Positions 27,480 through 32,913 of a stretch of DNA of 64,000 nt are shown here, in pieces. Source of the DNA: Lyngbya sp. HA4199-MV5. GTDB taxonomy: Bacteria > Cyanobacteriota > Cyanobacteriia > Leptolyngbyales > Leptolyngbyaceae. Every line of letters starts with the position of its first letter. Position 1 is the stretch's first letter. The stretch covers positions 124,001 through 188,000 of the forward strand of contig JAHHHL010000001.1 in assembly GCA_019359375.1 (NCBI GenBank). Reading direction: 5' to 3'. A program made the position numbers and the translations under genes. The notes under the pieces are model-generated. The model was not told the origin of the DNA. It ran no database searches and saw only the letters and a list, made by a program, of their open reading frames with translations.

Positions 27480-27676
27480 TACAGAATGGAAGTGAAGCAT
27501 TCACCCTGAGTCGGAGCAATCTTCATGCCGTTTTCGGAACCTGCCGAACCGATCAGGGTATTCATATCTTACGACTAGAAAGACCAAGAACTTTTAAGGA
27601 AGCTGGTAAATCATCTAGCTCCACTACAGCACTGCAACTTGGTTAGAACGTTCAGTAGCTATGTCATTGGTGCAGG

Positions 27677-27950
27677 CTTAGGGCGTGTCATCAACTAGCT
27701 CCAAAACCTTGCAGTATCACCAGTGTCACGCCCGTCCCAACACATCAGGCTAGGGGCTGGAACCCTTGCCGATCATGTGCTCATACAGCAAACTCTCTCT
27801 CAAGGGAAGCAGGAGCAACTGTATCTGAGCCTCGATACCACCCTGGTGTGGCATTGTTTCTGCCTTGTTGGGGTTGGGGTGGTGTATCGGGGCAGAACCA
27901 CCCCTATCGCTTGGCGAATTGCCGTGCAATCGAGTAGCACTGTCAGGTGA
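27677..27950 (+). pseudogene. Truncated insertion sequence: family A left end plus start of an IS4-type transposase
   Basis: Bases 27677-27769 match the left 93 bases of the family A elements. Directly after, a frame to the stop at 27948 encodes a stretch with LYLSLDTTLVWHCFCLVG and VVYRGRTTPIAWRI. This resembles the region around the first catalytic Asp of IS4-family DDE transposases (ALDTT...R-G-R-A/T-x-P). The rest of the transposase and the right end are missing. No functional product is expected. Confidence 0.65.
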
Positions 27951-27956
27951 TGGACG

Positions 27957-28227
27957 ATGCAGCGGGTTCTACAAACTCAAGAGGCAACGGGGTTTGTCGA
28001 GGGTATTTTTGCCGCTAAAGAGTACGGGCAACTTCAGATCCATCCTGTGACCTCCCAACATTTTGCATTGGCTTGGGGTTTGAGAAAACGGTTTCAAGAC
28101 AAACCGCTGATATTCGTTTACCGACTTAACGTCAATGGTGATGATGCAGGAGCAGGCGATTCTCTCTGTTCTGACTCAGGACGATCGTTTTCTCCAAGTG
28201 GGGATGGGATTCATGAAAATGCCTTAG
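27957..28227 (+). pseudogene. Frameshifted PIN-domain toxin fragment
   Basis: Frame one holds LQIHPVTSQHFALAWGLRKRFQDKPLI, like the middle of PIN toxins. The next frame, from about 28114, holds SFTDLTSMVMMQEQ then VLTQDDRFLQVGMGF and a TAG at 28225. SFTD and the DDRFxQ ending are standard PIN C-terminal motifs. A one-base shift near 28113 joins the two. The N-terminal half, with the first catalytic Asp, is absent and the truncated insertion sequence takes its place. Confidence 0.65.
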
Positions 28228-28290
28228 TTTAGAATGCGATCGCCCCTCCCCCCACCCTACACCCCCTCCCGCGACTCCCCCCACCTCCCA

Positions 28291-28328
28291 CGTCATCGAA
28301 TCATCCGACAGTTCATCGGTGCGCTGCT
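28291..28328 (-). repeat. NLR-tail repeat, copy 1
   Basis: On the minus strand it reads as RTDELSDDSMT in a frame with LLQKAIQKQ just before it, which resembles the C-terminal segment of the TPR protein at 30380-31714 (LLQKVMWARQAEQLSDHPVTQ). 37 of 38 bases are shared with copy 3 allowing for single changes. It lies inside the 3' end of the RelE-like toxin frame. Confidence 0.75.
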
Positions 28329-28678
28329 TCTGGATGGCTTTTTGGAGGAGTGATTTTTTGAGTAACTGACAACCTGATCGCTGTTGAACCAAGGAGCAAA
28401 GCTTTGTAGATGTTGCCTCTGAAGTCGATGTCGTAGACCTGTAAGGCATCCACTTCTAAGTCGATCGTGAAAACGACTCTAACTTTCCCTACACGCATCC
28501 TGAAGAATCCTTTCCATTCTCCTTTGAGGCTTTTGATGTCTAATTCGTTAAAGGGAATAATGCCCTCAGCCTCAAGCGATTGGAGGAGGACAGCAAGTCT
28601 TTCCTGGAGTTTCTCGGTTTCTTTAGGGGACAGTTTCTCTAGAAATTTGACAGAAGCTTTACTGAGGACGAGTTCCAT
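28313..28678 (-). CDS. RelE/ParE-superfamily toxin with read-through C-terminal extension
   Basis: 121 residues. MELVLSKASVKFLEKLSPKETEKLQER, NELDIKSLKGEWKGFFRMRVGKVRVVF and LQVYDIDFRGNIYK form a complete RelE/ParE-like toxin of about 92 residues; such toxins cut mRNA at the ribosome or target gyrase. Family members normally end near NIYK. Here the frame runs on for about 28 residues (ALLLGSTAIRLS... ending HPEAAHR) into the NLR-tail repeat, so the original stop appears lost. The start overlaps the antitoxin end by 20 bases. Activity with the extended tail is uncertain. Confidence 0.8.
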   Translation of the reverse strand: MELVLSKASVKFLEKLSPKETEKLQERLAVLLQSLEAEGIIPFNELDIKSLKGEWKGFFRMRVGKVRVVFTIDLEVDALQVYDIDFRGNIYKALLLGSTAIRLSVTQKITPPKSHPEAAHR

Positions 28679-28871
28679 TTTTGACCCAGTCCGTCATGTT
28701 GACAAATTCTGTCTCTTTGTAATCAGCAGGTGATCCTAGTTTGGCTTGAATTTCCTGCATTTCTTTGTCGCTGACGTAGGGAATAAGCACTTGACACAGC
28801 TTTAAGCGTTCTTCTCGAAGCACTTCCCGCAGGCTGTCTTTGACCAGTTGTTTGAGTTGATTGGCTTCCAC
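28659..28871 (-). CDS. Antitoxin partner of the RelE-like toxin
   Basis: 70 residues, upstream of and overlapping the toxin gene by 20 bases, the usual antitoxin-toxin order. A helical N-terminus (NQLKQLVKDSLREVLREERLKL) is followed by VSDKEMQEIQAKLGSP and a C-terminal part (FVNMTDWVKN) that would wrap the toxin. No DNA-binding motif is certain. Assignment rests on size and coupling to the toxin. Confidence 0.75.
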   Translation of the reverse strand: MEANQLKQLVKDSLREVLREERLKLCQVLIPYVSDKEMQEIQAKLGSPADYKETEFVNMTDWVKNGTRPQ

Positions 28872-28995
28872 AAGATGACCTCCGATCGCATGTTCTTTCT
28901 ACGCCATCCAGCTTCAGTTTACCTCCAGTACAGAGCCAATTGCCCCCTTTCATCCCTCATCCTTCATCCCTCATCCCTTCCCCCAACTCCCCCCG

Positions 28996-29028
28996 CGTCA
29001 TCGGATCATCCGACAGTTCATCGGTGCG
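28996..29028 (-). repeat. NLR-tail repeat, copy 2
   Basis: Minus-strand reading RTDELSDDPMTR, preceded by AF-AR-D. 33 bases are shared with copies 1 and 3. It separates the RelE-like pair from the PIN pair. Confidence 0.75.
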
Positions 29029-29044
29029 ATCGCGAGCAAAAGCA

Positions 29045-29269
29045 TTAAGAATGCTGCTGTTGCTCGCGCCAGTGAATGACTTTTTCATACAAACTAGAAA
29101 CAGTTTCACCAGCAAACAATTGCTGTTTAAGCTGCAAGTAGTCTGTTGGTTGCCACCGCGTTTCACCCAGAAAAATAGCGGCTTTGGTAATGCCAAGTTG
29201 CTCGATCAATACAGAAATAGCTTCTCTGTGAACATCTTGACTGGTTGGTAGGGCTGGAGTGTTATTCAT
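29045..29269 (-). CDS. Small protein coupled to PIN toxin, putative antitoxin
   Basis: 74 residues. The ATG follows the TAA of the PIN gene with no spacer, so toxin comes first, an inverted order seen in some pairs. VHREAISVLIEQLGITKAAIFLGE and LQLKQQLFAGETVSSLYEKVIHWREQ are helical. No recognised DNA-binding fold. The antitoxin role is inferred from coupling. Confidence 0.65.
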   Translation of the reverse strand: MNNTPALPTSQDVHREAISVLIEQLGITKAAIFLGETRWQPTDYLQLKQQLFAGETVSSLYEKVIHWREQQQHS

Positions 29270-29716
29270 TTAAGTTTCTGGTGCAGTGACGCTGAGAATA
29301 AAATCTACTGGGTTACAGACTTGCGTATTACCTTTGTAGCGTCTAACTAACCGATCGTCACAGGTGATGAAGTAGTCAGCAGCGAGAATTTCAGCACAGG
29401 CAATATCAATATGTAAGGCATCTAGTTGTCCAATCCGATCCTTGGCTTCAAGTTGCTGACCTCTGAATAACAATTCAGGTGTGAGTGTCTGATAAGTCCG
29501 GGCTATTTCTAGAATACCTAAGGCGATCGCTTGGCTGTCTGGGTAGGGATTGCGAGAAATTTCGTAGGCAAGGGCTTCTGATGCCACAAACTCAACTGCA
29601 CCCGTTTCAATCAAGAGCAAAATGGACTCCATTGCCTTGGCTTCAAGAGCGATTCGCATTTGAGAGCGATCGTCAAACAACCGATTCAGGGCGCTAGTGT
29701 CGAGATAGATTCTCAT
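29270..29716 (-). CDS. PIN-domain ribonuclease (VapC-like toxin)
   Basis: 148 residues. MRIYLDTSALNRLFDD carries the first catalytic Asp (Asp6). Acidic residues in ASEALAYEISRNP, LDALHIDIACAE and YFITCDDRLVRRY match the other PIN active-site positions. VapC-like enzymes cleave RNA, often initiator tRNA or rRNA loops. Followed without a gap by a putative antitoxin. It lies between NLR-tail repeats copy 2 and copy 3. Confidence 0.85.
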   Translation of the reverse strand: MRIYLDTSALNRLFDDRSQMRIALEAKAMESILLLIETGAVEFVASEALAYEISRNPYPDSQAIALGILEIARTYQTLTPELLFRGQQLEAKDRIGQLDALHIDIACAEILAADYFITCDDRLVRRYKGNTQVCNPVDFILSVTAPET

Positions 29717-29794
29717 GGCGAGATGCGTCTATCCCGGAGATGATACCTCATTTCCCTATGGTGTTTGGGTGCGAAGCTCTTGGAGAATGGATCG

Positions 29795-29832
29795 CGTCAT
29801 CGGATCATCCGACAGTTCATCCGTGCGCTGCT
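29795..29832 (-). repeat. NLR-tail repeat, copy 3
   Basis: Minus-strand reading RTDELSDDPMTRSILQELRTQTP then TAG, with an in-frame TAA just before EQRTDE. It looks like the genuine 3' end of a lost NLR/TPR gene. It separates the PIN pair from the DUF2442/DUF4160 pair. Confidence 0.75.
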
Positions 29833-29842
29833 CTTACCACTC

Positions 29843-30121
29843 TTACTGTGTAGCCACTCTGGAATAGGTTGGAATCGGAGTCTCAGAAACAATGGCGTAC
29901 AGCACGTCGGGGTCGAGGTCAGCGCCGTTTTGCCAGATTAGTGTGCCTAGTTCTGGGTGAATCTGAACTTGGGCAAAGGTTGCCGGATCTTGTAGAGGGG
30001 CAAAGATACCGGAAAATGGAATCAACTGACTAATATCCACAACTCCTTCAATGCCATCCTCAAAGCGTAGAAAGAGTTGATAACCTTCTAATCGTTTGAC
30101 TGCCACAATGTCTTTGAGCAT
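29843..30121 (-). CDS. DUF2442 family protein
   Basis: 92 residues. VVAVKRLEGYQLFLRFEDGIEGVVDISQL- and WQNGADLDPDVLY-type segments are the DUF2442 signature. It is 5 bases below the DUF4160 gene on the same strand. DUF4160 and DUF2442 genes commonly travel together and are suspected toxin-antitoxin-like pairs; the activity is not established. Confidence 0.9.
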   Translation of the reverse strand: MLKDIVAVKRLEGYQLFLRFEDGIEGVVDISQLIPFSGIFAPLQDPATFAQVQIHPELGTLIWQNGADLDPDVLYAIVSETPIPTYSRVATQ

Positions 30122-30126
30122 AAACC

Positions 30127-30387
30127 TTACTCCAGGGGTTGAACGGATTCTAGCGGCTCCTGCTGTCTGGCTAATTCCCAGTTTTGCAACAGTTCAGCCT
30201 GATGGGCAGATGCCCACTCGATGACGAGTCCCAGAACTCTAGGGGAAAGTTTTCCTTCCAGAATGGAGAGGGACTGAATTTCAATGATGGCTTTTTGTTG
30301 ACCGTAACGCACATGAAAATGGGGTGGTGGATGATCGTTGTAGTACATGGCGATGATGATGCCAAAGAAGCGACTGATTTCAGGCAT
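30127..30387 (-). CDS. DUF4160 family protein
   Basis: 86 residues. The motif MYYNDHPPPHFHVRYGQQKAIIEI is the hallmark of DUF4160. The start overlaps the TPR gene stop by 8 bases, so it is translationally coupled to the NLR locus. The DUF2442 partner follows 5 bases later. HPPPHFH histidines may bind metal, but the role is unknown. Confidence 0.9.
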   Translation of the reverse strand: MPEISRFFGIIIAMYYNDHPPPHFHVRYGQQKAIIEIQSLSILEGKLSPRVLGLVIEWASAHQAELLQNWELARQQEPLESVQPLE

Positions 30388-31714
30388 TAGTATCCCCTGC
30401 CTGTATCCGCCGCAGCAACTTCTGCGTCACTGGATGGTCGGAGAGTTGCTCGGCTTGTCTTGCCCACATCACCTTCTGCAAAAGAAGTCGAAAGCTTTGC
30501 TGTACAGTTTGAGTATGGCGATGGTCATTGTCTAAGCGATTCAACAAGATTTCTAATGCCTGAACATACAGCGGTTCTGCCTCAACGTAGCGTCCTTGTA
30601 ATTGATAAAGGTTTGCCAAACTATTGATGGTGATTGCTACAGCCGGATGCGTTTCTCCTAACCATCGCTCGTGAATAGGTAGAGAAAACAGTAAGAGTGG
30701 CTCTGCTTTGCTGTATTGTTCTTGGGAATAGTAAAGTGTTGCCAGGTTATGTAAAATCTCTGCTACTTCAAAACTTTTCTCCCCGTATAAACGTTCGCTG
30801 ATGTTCAGCGCTCGATTGTAAAGCGATTCAGCTTCATCAGAGCGTCCTTGCAATTGATAAAGTCCTGCTAGATTGTTTAGGCTAGTTGCTACGAAAGGAT
30901 CGTCAGCTTCTAGTTGCTGCTCGCTTATGGCAAGCGCCTGTAAGTAAAGTGTCTCAGCTTCGGGGTATCGTTTTTGTGAAGAGCGAAGTCCTGCTAAATC
31001 GTTCAGGCTTGCTGCTACATCGGGAGCGTCTGCTCCTAGTTTTCTCTCTCGAATGGCAAGCGCTCTTAAACAGAGCGGTTCTGCTTCGGGGTAGCGTCCC
31101 TGCACTCGAAGGAGCTTTGCTAAAGTGCCCAGGTTTAGTACCACATCAAGATGGTCTTGTCCCAACTGCTGTTCCCGAATTGAGAGCGATCGTAGGTAGA
31201 GCGGTTCTGCTTCCACATAGCGTCCTTGATCGTGGTAGAGACTTGCTAGCCAAAATAGACAGGTTGCTGCCTCCAGTGCTTGCTCTGGTCTGGTTAACCG
31301 TTCCATCGCCACCTGCAAGTGGGCAATCGCCACCGTCGATTCCTTGATCAGCGATCGCTCCGGCTTCTCCTGCACTCTTTTTGCCTCTGCAATCACCACC
31401 TCATAAAACCGCTGCTGCAATGCTGAGTCATTTGCCCGTTGCGATCGCTTTGCAGCAAAAAATTCTCGCAGCAGTTGATGTAGTTGGTACATCCCCTGAT
31501 CGACACGCTTGAGTAGATTTGCGCCTAAGAGGGCGCGATCGCGGATCTCTTCCAACTCTTCTGCATCCACTTCTGGCAAACACTGCTCCACCAGCGTCCA
31601 GGGGATTTCCACCAGGGCAAACAGGCTTAAGACGGCGGCGACTTGCTGCGCGGACTCGTCCAATGCCTGCCAGCTCAACTCAAACGCGGCGGCGACTCCC
31701 AACGATGCTGTCAT
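30380..31714 (-). CDS. NLR C-terminal half: winged-helix and TPR sensor, out of frame with the TIR-NB-ARC half
   Basis: 444 residues if it starts at the ATG at 31712-31714. It opens with LGVAAAFELSWQALDESAQQVAAVLSLFA and a winged-helix-like region with LLRRVD-type YQLHQLLREFF, as found after the NB-ARC ATPase in STAND proteins. Eight or so kinesin-light-chain TPRs follow (EAEPLYLRSLSIREQQLG, LAxLYxxQGRYxEAE). They likely form the ligand sensor. The frame is open up to 31855 but belongs to the preceding gene through an A5 run at 31727-31731. ATGA overlaps the upstream stop, so reinitiation is also possible. The C-terminal peptide AEQLSDHPVTQKLL is the source of the NLR-tail repeats. Confidence 0.85.
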   Translation of the reverse strand: MTASLGVAAAFELSWQALDESAQQVAAVLSLFALVEIPWTLVEQCLPEVDAEELEEIRDRALLGANLLKRVDQGMYQLHQLLREFFAAKRSQRANDSALQQRFYEVVIAEAKRVQEKPERSLIKESTVAIAHLQVAMERLTRPEQALEAATCLFWLASLYHDQGRYVEAEPLYLRSLSIREQQLGQDHLDVVLNLGTLAKLLRVQGRYPEAEPLCLRALAIRERKLGADAPDVAASLNDLAGLRSSQKRYPEAETLYLQALAISEQQLEADDPFVATSLNNLAGLYQLQGRSDEAESLYNRALNISERLYGEKSFEVAEILHNLATLYYSQEQYSKAEPLLLFSLPIHERWLGETHPAVAITINSLANLYQLQGRYVEAEPLYVQALEILLNRLDNDHRHTQTVQQSFRLLLQKVMWARQAEQLSDHPVTQKLLRRIQAGDTNA

Positions 31715-32913
31715 ACCGGGTTCGGCTTTTTGAAGGCGATCGCGTCCAGGCGTTTGTCCTGCAACCGTTGCCACAGGGTTTCCAGCGATGTATCGGGTTT
31801 GCGTGCCAGATACCGCCCAACTAGCTCGATTCCCAGCGGCAGGTAGCCCAACCATTCGCAGAGTTGTTTTGCTCGCGCTAAGGCGTGATCTACCCGATCG
31901 TCTTTCACCAGCGATCGCAATAATTCCAGCGCCTTTGCCTCCGACAACACATCTAGTTGCAAATCCTGCACGGGTGAGCCGAAGTGCGATCGCGTGGTTA
32001 GCAATACCTTAAAGCGCGAGTCTTGCGGCGGCAGGAAGGGGGCAATATCGTCGTAGTGCTGCACGTCATCAAAGATGAGGAGTGCGGCTCCTTCACGCCA
32101 GCGTCTCCAGCACCAGCGCACCTTTTCGACGAGTTCCAGGTCGTCTGGTGGGATTAATTCCAGGAGCGATCGCACAAAGCTAATAATTTGTGCCCCAACA
32201 TCTTCTCGTGCCCGTATCCAGCAGAGTCCAGCGGGATAAGAACCCTCACGGCACTGTTGGCGGGCATATTGCAACGCGAGTTCGGTCTTGCCAATGCCAC
32301 CCATCCCGGAAAGGGCAGAAATGGCGACGGTGGAACCTTGCTGCAACTGGTGATGGATCTGTTCGAGTTCCGCGTCTCGTCCGACAAAGGTATTGCTGCC
32401 GTAGGGAAGGTTCTGGAGGATGTTGGGCGGGTAGATGGGTTTGGCGCGATCGGTCATTGATGCTGTTTGTCCGGGGAAGCTTGGCTTTTGCTGAGGCTTG
32501 GTGCGTCCGGTTTGTACGGCTTGCAGCACTAATTCCTGCGCGGCTGCTTCTTCAACGCTAACCAGATCGACGTAGACGATCGGTGCCCACATTCCGGTTA
32601 AGGTACACTCGCCGACGCGAATGGGAATGAGTAAATGCTTCTCTCCGGTTGGGTCTTGGGCAAAGGCGGCTGCCCATTCGGGTTGGGTAAATTGCGAACT
32701 CAGATAGTTTTCAGATAGGACGGCGATCGTGCGGTCTGCCTGGGACGCGGCGCGTTGCATATCCAGCACGAAGTTTCCACCGGGACGGAAATCCCATGCC
32801 TGAATGATGACGGTGTATTCTGCGGCTTCGAGTGTCCAGGCGATCCATTCTGCCCAGGTTTTATCGTGGCGATTGTAGCTGATGAAAAAATCGTTTGTTG
32901 CTTCAGCTTGCAT
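31711..32913 (-). CDS. NLR N-terminal half: TIR and NB-ARC domains (frame break at 3' end)
   Basis: 400 residues. The TIR domain (about 7-118) begins DFFISYNRHDKTWAEWIAW and has the candidate catalytic Glu79 in the FTQPEW motif; TIR domains cleave NAD+ or make cyclic ADP-ribose signals. The NB-ARC ATPase follows: P-loop GMGGIGKT (203-210), Walker B LLIFDDV (278-284), sensor VLLTTRS (303-309) and GYLPL (356-360). This is the layout of bacterial and plant NLR immune receptors. The protein would continue into the TPR frame if one base were added in the A5 run (31727-31731). As read, it stops after KKPNPV at a TGA that overlaps ATG of the next frame. Confidence 0.88.
   Translation of the reverse strand: MQAEATNDFFISYNRHDKTWAEWIAWTLEAAEYTVIIQAWDFRPGGNFVLDMQRAASQADRTIAVLSENYLSSQFTQPEWAAAFAQDPTGEKHLLIPIRVGECTLTGMWAPIVYVDLVSVEEAAAQELVLQAVQTGRTKPQQKPSFPGQTASMTDRAKPIYPPNILQNLPYGSNTFVGRDAELEQIHHQLQQGSTVAISALSGMGGIGKTELALQYARQQCREGSYPAGLCWIRAREDVGAQIISFVRSLLELIPPDDLELVEKVRWCWRRWREGAALLIFDDVQHYDDIAPFLPPQDSRFKVLLTTRSHFGSPVQDLQLDVLSEAKALELLRSLVKDDRVDHALARAKQLCEWLGYLPLGIELVGRYLARKPDTSLETLWQRLQDKRLDAIAFKKPNPV

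Follow-up and report, generated by a model that had tools for sequence, protein, structure and literature searches.

Behind a TIR-NB-ARC-TPR (NLR) gene of Lyngbya sp. HA4199-MV5 lies an array of small gene pairs of toxin–antitoxin (TA) type, each followed by a short repeat that reads as the 3′ end of such an NLR gene. The array stands on a stretch of 64,000 nucleotides, hereafter the window (assembly GCA_019359375.1, contig JAHHHL010000001.1, positions 124,001 to 188,000), whose own numbering is used below; G, C and L numbers are our handles for genomes, contigs and loci, the window genome being G000. We consider it probable that the array records serial 3′-end displacement at the NLR locus, with the tails serving later as short homology for exchange. 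The order of events we infer is as follows. A related NLR 3′ end, with the TA pair behind it, would recombine into the resident NLR, by homology at one end and, for the first scar, by illegitimate joining at the other. Most of the old 3′ region would be lost, and its last few dozen bases would remain downstream, with the old TA pair, as scar and module. Repeated displacement would give NLR–TA–tail–TA–tail–TA, and two or more tails would then offer short shared homology through which ordinary recombination could add or remove tail-flanked TA pairs or change what stands beside them. The pairs may persist because they are addictive.

Repeats and NLR tails

A preliminary description had reported three repeats encoding RTDELSDD(P/S)MT on the minus strand, which alignment, shuffling and translation confirmed. 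The repeats, of 33-38 bp, lie at 28291-28328, 28996-29033 and 29795-29832, with a mutual identity of 87-95% over 38 bp, and translate as RTDELSDDPMT, RTDELSDDPMT and RTDELSDDSMT. Their core pattern has three matches in the window against none expected (100 shuffles), and, with up to three mismatches allowed, no further copy was found in the 6.9-Mb genome, which together exclude a chance repeat. The copy at 29795 had been said to end in its own stop codon and does stay in frame up to it: this scar, T1 (29756..29833, core 29795-29827), reads RTDELSDDPMTRSILQELRTQTP-stop. T2 (28996..29033, core 28996-29028) was placed by repeat alignment and translation, and T3 with its flanks (28240..28350, core 28291-28323) by translation and comparison with relatives.

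The repeats are 3′ ends of NLR genes, standing here as scars. Orthologous NLRs of three sister species carry the repeat as their real C-terminus (that of G034 ends ...LLQKSIQEQRSDELSDDPMTQGVLRELEEGGGV, with G035 and G036 alike), and the tail is the true NLR C-terminus in G034, G035:C38, G036, G015, G017, G060 and G204. A degenerate-pattern search of 388 genomes of the class matched in 20, and most of the matches that were translated proved to be true NLR ends, the others being scars and a small number of unrelated proteins. Against a profile of the last 101 NLR residues, true ends are fully covered, whereas most scars begin at profile positions 60-84 and continue beyond the stop; the second copy in G015 retains about 60 codons of the NLR end. 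The tail tracks the NLR protein subtype (LSDDPMT versus LSDHPATQ), and arrays elsewhere have scars of different NLR subtypes, with different sequences. That the scars are translated as part of the module genes was considered and rejected, as most have upstream in-frame stops, the G015 copy being open for 90 aa. NLR 3′ flanks and scar flanks contain G-rich repeats of heptad-like form, commonly ending close to GGCGATCGC, which is HIP1-like (L017 9113-9185 and 10620-10684; window 28240-28290 and 28905-28995), and G034 has a hairpin immediately before its third tail.

The earlier view of the repeats as fossil NLR 3′ ends was borne out beyond the window, as such tails recur behind NLRs in other genera, and whole arrays in several. 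A 34-aa tail profile run over 16 genomes of the family (7 Stenomitos and 9 others; E≤0.01) gave 40 rows, comprising 20 true NLR ends, 18 scars and 2 unclassified rows (G034:C72 and G023:C250). Matches with E>0.01 were left out of these counts, among them a pair 118 bp apart in G024, a weak third tail in G015 and the second tail of G039:C8, the last still being used as an interval end. For 14 of the 18 scars, another tail on the same strand precedes at a distance of 0.6-1.2 kb. The remaining four are found directly behind recG in G039, near a contig end in G039:C8, behind RelBE-XisHI at G019:2878k and, at G019:713k, behind an NLR with its own frameshifted tail. The densest tail array seen, G035:C34 (L079 4332-8477), has four successive tails with two PIN pairs, DUF6883/DUF4926, RelBE and HicBA; all four tails are of its own NLR subtype (GQTGQLSDH..ATQDLLRQM). 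Farther afield such arrays look rare: of 18 genomes picked chiefly from other families, 14 had tails, with a close tail pair in G204 only and a few solitary scars.

Whether the repeat always sits at NLR ends, as the preliminary description had asked, is answered mostly in the affirmative; a few solitary scars have no NLR (behind recG in G039, in G036:C116, in G103, and before an MNT/HEPN pair in G002) and look like what is left of lost NLRs. The refuting condition named there, copies widespread away from NLR genes, therefore holds in part only. Two genera have a similar MNT/HEPN pair, which in the one follows an intact NLR and in the other a solitary tail scar (L090 3142-3855, G002; L084 3928-4938, G036).

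TA-like pairs and their changing neighbours

Read from the NLR outward along the minus strand, the window carries DUF4160/DUF2442, T1, PIN with its partner, T2, RelB/RelE, T3 and a VapC remnant. The two-gene modules previously seen between the repeats hold up. On the minus strand, DUF4160 (30127..30387, its start overlapping the NLR stop), DUF2442 (29843..30121) and a predicted PIN-domain toxin gene (29270..29716) score above the curated Pfam cut-offs, and the 74-aa partner gene of PIN (29045..29269) has no Pfam match. Two further minus-strand genes fall below cut-off: a predicted RelB-like antitoxin (28659..28871; 19.9 versus 27 bits) and a predicted RelE/ParE-like toxin (28313..28678; ParE-type match, 17.2 versus 23 bits), whose frame continues into T3 and whose counterparts in relatives have 106 aa. 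Past T3 lies the remnant of a fourth module, a VapC (PIN) gene on the plus strand (27977..28236), which has no Pfam match by itself and was recognised by its similarity to G034.

Similar contents recur elsewhere, with a TA-like pair or its remnant in 15 of 17 tail-to-tail intervals (16 in the 16 family genomes, plus G204), the two without a recognised pair being G019:C1:713k and G204:C6. The intervals hold DUF4160/DUF2442, a PIN pair and RelBE in G000, VapBC and RelBE in G034, ParE/Phd with DUF2442, XisH/XisI, DUF6883/DUF4926 and two PIN pairs in G035, RelBE and a HicA remnant in G039, DUF6888/DUF6887 in G015, VapBC in G017 and MazE-type/PIN in G019. By their domains (matches to PIN, ParE/Phd, PemK, HicA and HepT/MNT, several of them below cut-off) the modules are predicted type II TA pairs; Pfam scores are below cut-off for RelE, RelB, one PIN and HicA among the interval genes, and XisHI, DUF6887/6888 and DUF6883/4926 are called TA-like from their two-small-gene layout. 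Of two papers, in the portions available, one lists DUF4160/DUF2442 among TA pairs (dhiTA; PMC8198452) and the other hypothesises that it is one (PMC12724237). The array RelE served as a control: a search of 42 family genomes gave 11 matches at E≤1e-12, counting the RelE itself, and all five at 81-100% identity lie beside a tail or NLR, against none of the six at 42-51%. In G019, a single reading frame joins a RelE gene to the C-terminal portion of XisH, with XisI next (L018 8762-9337, minus strand), a hybrid of two small-gene pairs.

The units exchange neighbours at the tails. The window shares a tail-RelBE-tail block with G034 (79%) and G039 (87%); similarity sets in at the left-tail core and stops some 80 nt beyond the point where the right-tail core begins. 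Its left partners are PIN in G000, VapC in G034 and recG in G039, and its right partners VapC, MazEF and recQ, respectively. The window's T3 with the VapC that follows resembles the G034 NLR's own tail with its following VapC (412 bp, 76%). Likewise, DUF2442 with a tail is common to the window, G035:C13 and G036:C116, three contexts with different right flanks; the tail's right half is not the same in the window, where it is like a type of tail found in another genus and is followed by PIN. At the recG locus such islands occur in three of seven Stenomitos genomes, with different content in each, whereas G000, G036 and G038 have other genes there and the G037 contig ends. In these respects the earlier proposal of recombinational shuffling is supported, and module content does vary.

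The window NLR is itself chimeric, its final ~750 bp being of other origin. The gene (30380..32913, minus strand; own tail AEQLSDHPVTQ), delimited from open reading frames, Pfam and comparison with relatives, is close to RTDELSDD-tailed orthologues up to about 31113 and then departs, whereas the orthologues remain about 72% alike right to the tail. Its C-terminal 125 aa are nearest to the NLR that precedes DUF2442 in G035:C13 (54%, versus 42-52% for others). As this 3′ part is foreign while the orthologues stay alike, the old end seems to have given way to an NLR 3′ end that brought its module along, the old tail being left downstream. The gene is split over two overlapping frames, 30380-31855 and 31711-32913, and is therefore frameshifted near 31711-31855; over these frames Pfam gives TIR_2 117.8, NB-ARC 64.3 and TPR_12 185.4 bits, so that it has the domains of a bacterial TIR NLR (NB-ARC STAND with TPR), though frameshifted. 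Both window flanks are present in relatives, yet on different contigs, and the insertion point of the island could therefore not be defined. A stretch of about 95 bp at 27673-27770 has more than 30 copies in this genome (~93-96% identical; ~80-89% in sister genomes) and is probably a miniature mobile element or an insertion-sequence end.

Probable displacement and its alternatives

The preliminary description had likened the modules to a cassette array with a coding-end attachment site, and this part of it was not supported. Relative to the core, the scars' left edges lie at +9, -3 to -6, -14, about -20 to -40, -64, -97 and -148 nt, a spread that argues against a fixed attachment site. A common left edge and a palindrome were sought as signs of a precise one; the edges vary, and the core palindrome CGGATGATCCG is not kept in the tails of other genera. 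Tails differ, moreover, between NLR subtypes, and no recombinase had a Pfam match among the interval genes tested, which came from the window and relatives' arrays and were not every open reading frame of every locus. Insertion of circulating tail-TA units into NLR tails, by homologous recombination or through some recombinase, leaving a tail on either side, is accordingly unlikely, even though tail-TA-tail units do act as exchangeable blocks with the switches inside the tail, the core of the RelBE unit is better conserved than its flanks, and circular intermediates are proposed for rhs in the accessible part of PMC2935791. Insertion also sits poorly with the age of the scars, which are not near-identical to the local tail: identity between scar and local true tail is 0.39-0.91 (mean 0.75), against 0.70-0.92 (mean 0.79) among orthologous true tails. 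The scars are as far from their local tail as orthologues are between species, and are therefore not fresh copies, which rules out recent local tandem duplication as the general case.

A different origin is erosion, in which tandem NLR-TA arrays would have lost their inner NLR bodies by deletions bounded by the addictive TA pairs, with the tails left over. NLR ghosts that keep only the 3′ end are in keeping with it (behind recG in G039, in G023 where G017 has its NLR, and before MNT/HEPN in G002), as is the existence of a tandem NLR array in G024. That array, however, has no TA pairs between its NLRs, no intact NLR-TA-NLR-TA array was found among the loci read, and the order of VapC and RelBE differs between G000 and G034, so that recombination would be needed as well. 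We regard erosion as quite unlikely. The G024 array (G024:C41:1-25455; L062, L073, L074) comprises several NLR genes in tandem with short gaps.

Several observations weigh against serial displacement. Most scars retain less than 50 nt upstream of the core, whereas uniform illegitimate joining should often leave long pieces of the 2.7-kb NLR. In seven arrays the last tail has no recognisable TA pair after it, and G204 has two near-identical tails within 0.5 kb of each other and no intervening module, so that local duplication also happens. No locus offers the states before and after an event with identical flanks: a search for a single-tail empty site with matching flanks, made for G017 and G019 within the genus to which they belong, gave only G022, a clean empty site that lacks the whole island, tails included, and the NLR ghost of G023. 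Finally, the core of the RelBE scars is conserved beyond what is expected of a dead scar, with 176 of 198 core positions identical (89%) versus 362 of 543 noncoding flank positions (67%) in three species pairs, which are not independent and whose scars were first found by their core.

This core excess would be explained by repeated recombination with functional NLR tails, or by a function of the core. RelB third codon positions of the unit are 71-79% identical in the three species; a counter-example to the excess is the G035/G039 unit, with 23 of 33 core bases identical. The excess is also what a regulatory or structural DNA element common to NLRs and TA pairs (a terminator, promoter or binding site) would predict. 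Such an element is nonetheless highly improbable, given that the sequence follows the NLR protein subtype, that some scars extend up to about 148 nt into NLR coding sequence and that this one orthologous pair keeps so few core bases. A bolder and decidedly doubtful idea is that the 33-bp NLR end is a dedicated exchange site, under selection in the noncoding scars, at which cyanobacteria swap TA pairs; if true, it would amount to a cassette system without an integrase of its own, or with one in trans, coupling the turnover of NLRs and TA pairs.

Relation to known displacement arrays

How small TA pairs move and accumulate without mobility genes is an open question. Each tail scar would be a readable record of a displaced or lost NLR end and of the TA pair once behind it, and an NLR tail before a TA pair could serve as a marker for finding lost immune genes in genomes. 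Serial displacement would also carry 3′-displacement, so far described for toxins that are secreted or injected, over to immune genes of the intracellular NLR kind. In the literature, mainly open-access, we found no earlier report of such arrays for NLRs with TA pairs.

Integron cassette arrays also consist of small genes with a repeated element between them and variable content. Unlike in integrons, no integrase was found among the array genes run through Pfam, and the element has no fixed boundary. An integron-like reading fails on these boundaries and on the absent recombinase match, although the array still works somewhat like an integron.

The likeness to rhs is greater. In the available sections of Jackson et al. 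2009 (PMC2935791), C-terminal displacement accounts for arrays in which dissociated tips are accompanied by core remnants that vary in length; there, as here, modules lie behind a conserved gene whose 3′ ends are exchanged, each with a variable-length remnant of that gene as a direct repeat. In rhs, as described there, the module is the toxin tip itself, fused to the gene, and the repeated core has almost the same sequence as the local gene, whereas the NLR arrays hold separate TA pairs behind an intracellular NLR and their scars have diverged. For the effector-immunity arrays of the Vibrio cholerae type VI secretion system (T6SS), homology-facilitated illegitimate recombination is proposed (Kirchberger et al. 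2017, PMC5361080). The accessible text describes serial displacement in which downstream genes are kept and the 3′ end of at least one effector has been shifted back, as in our arrays, yet it is orphan immunity genes that are kept there and complete TA pairs here. CdiA-CT/CdiI orphan arrays, in the part available of PMC4927057, likewise have displaced 3′ ends downstream in the same orientation, possibly reused by recombination; they differ in that transposase or integrase genes often lie between, of which none was noted in the NLR arrays.

Two hallmarks of 3′-displacement are thus present, namely direct-repeat remnants of the upstream gene before displaced modules and an upstream gene with an exchanged 3′ end. 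A third, that the exchanged part is the gene's own toxin tip with its cognate immunity gene, is absent. Because the modules are separate and not fused to the NLR, the array works like the rhs, CdiA and T6SS arrays and is not filed as one of them.

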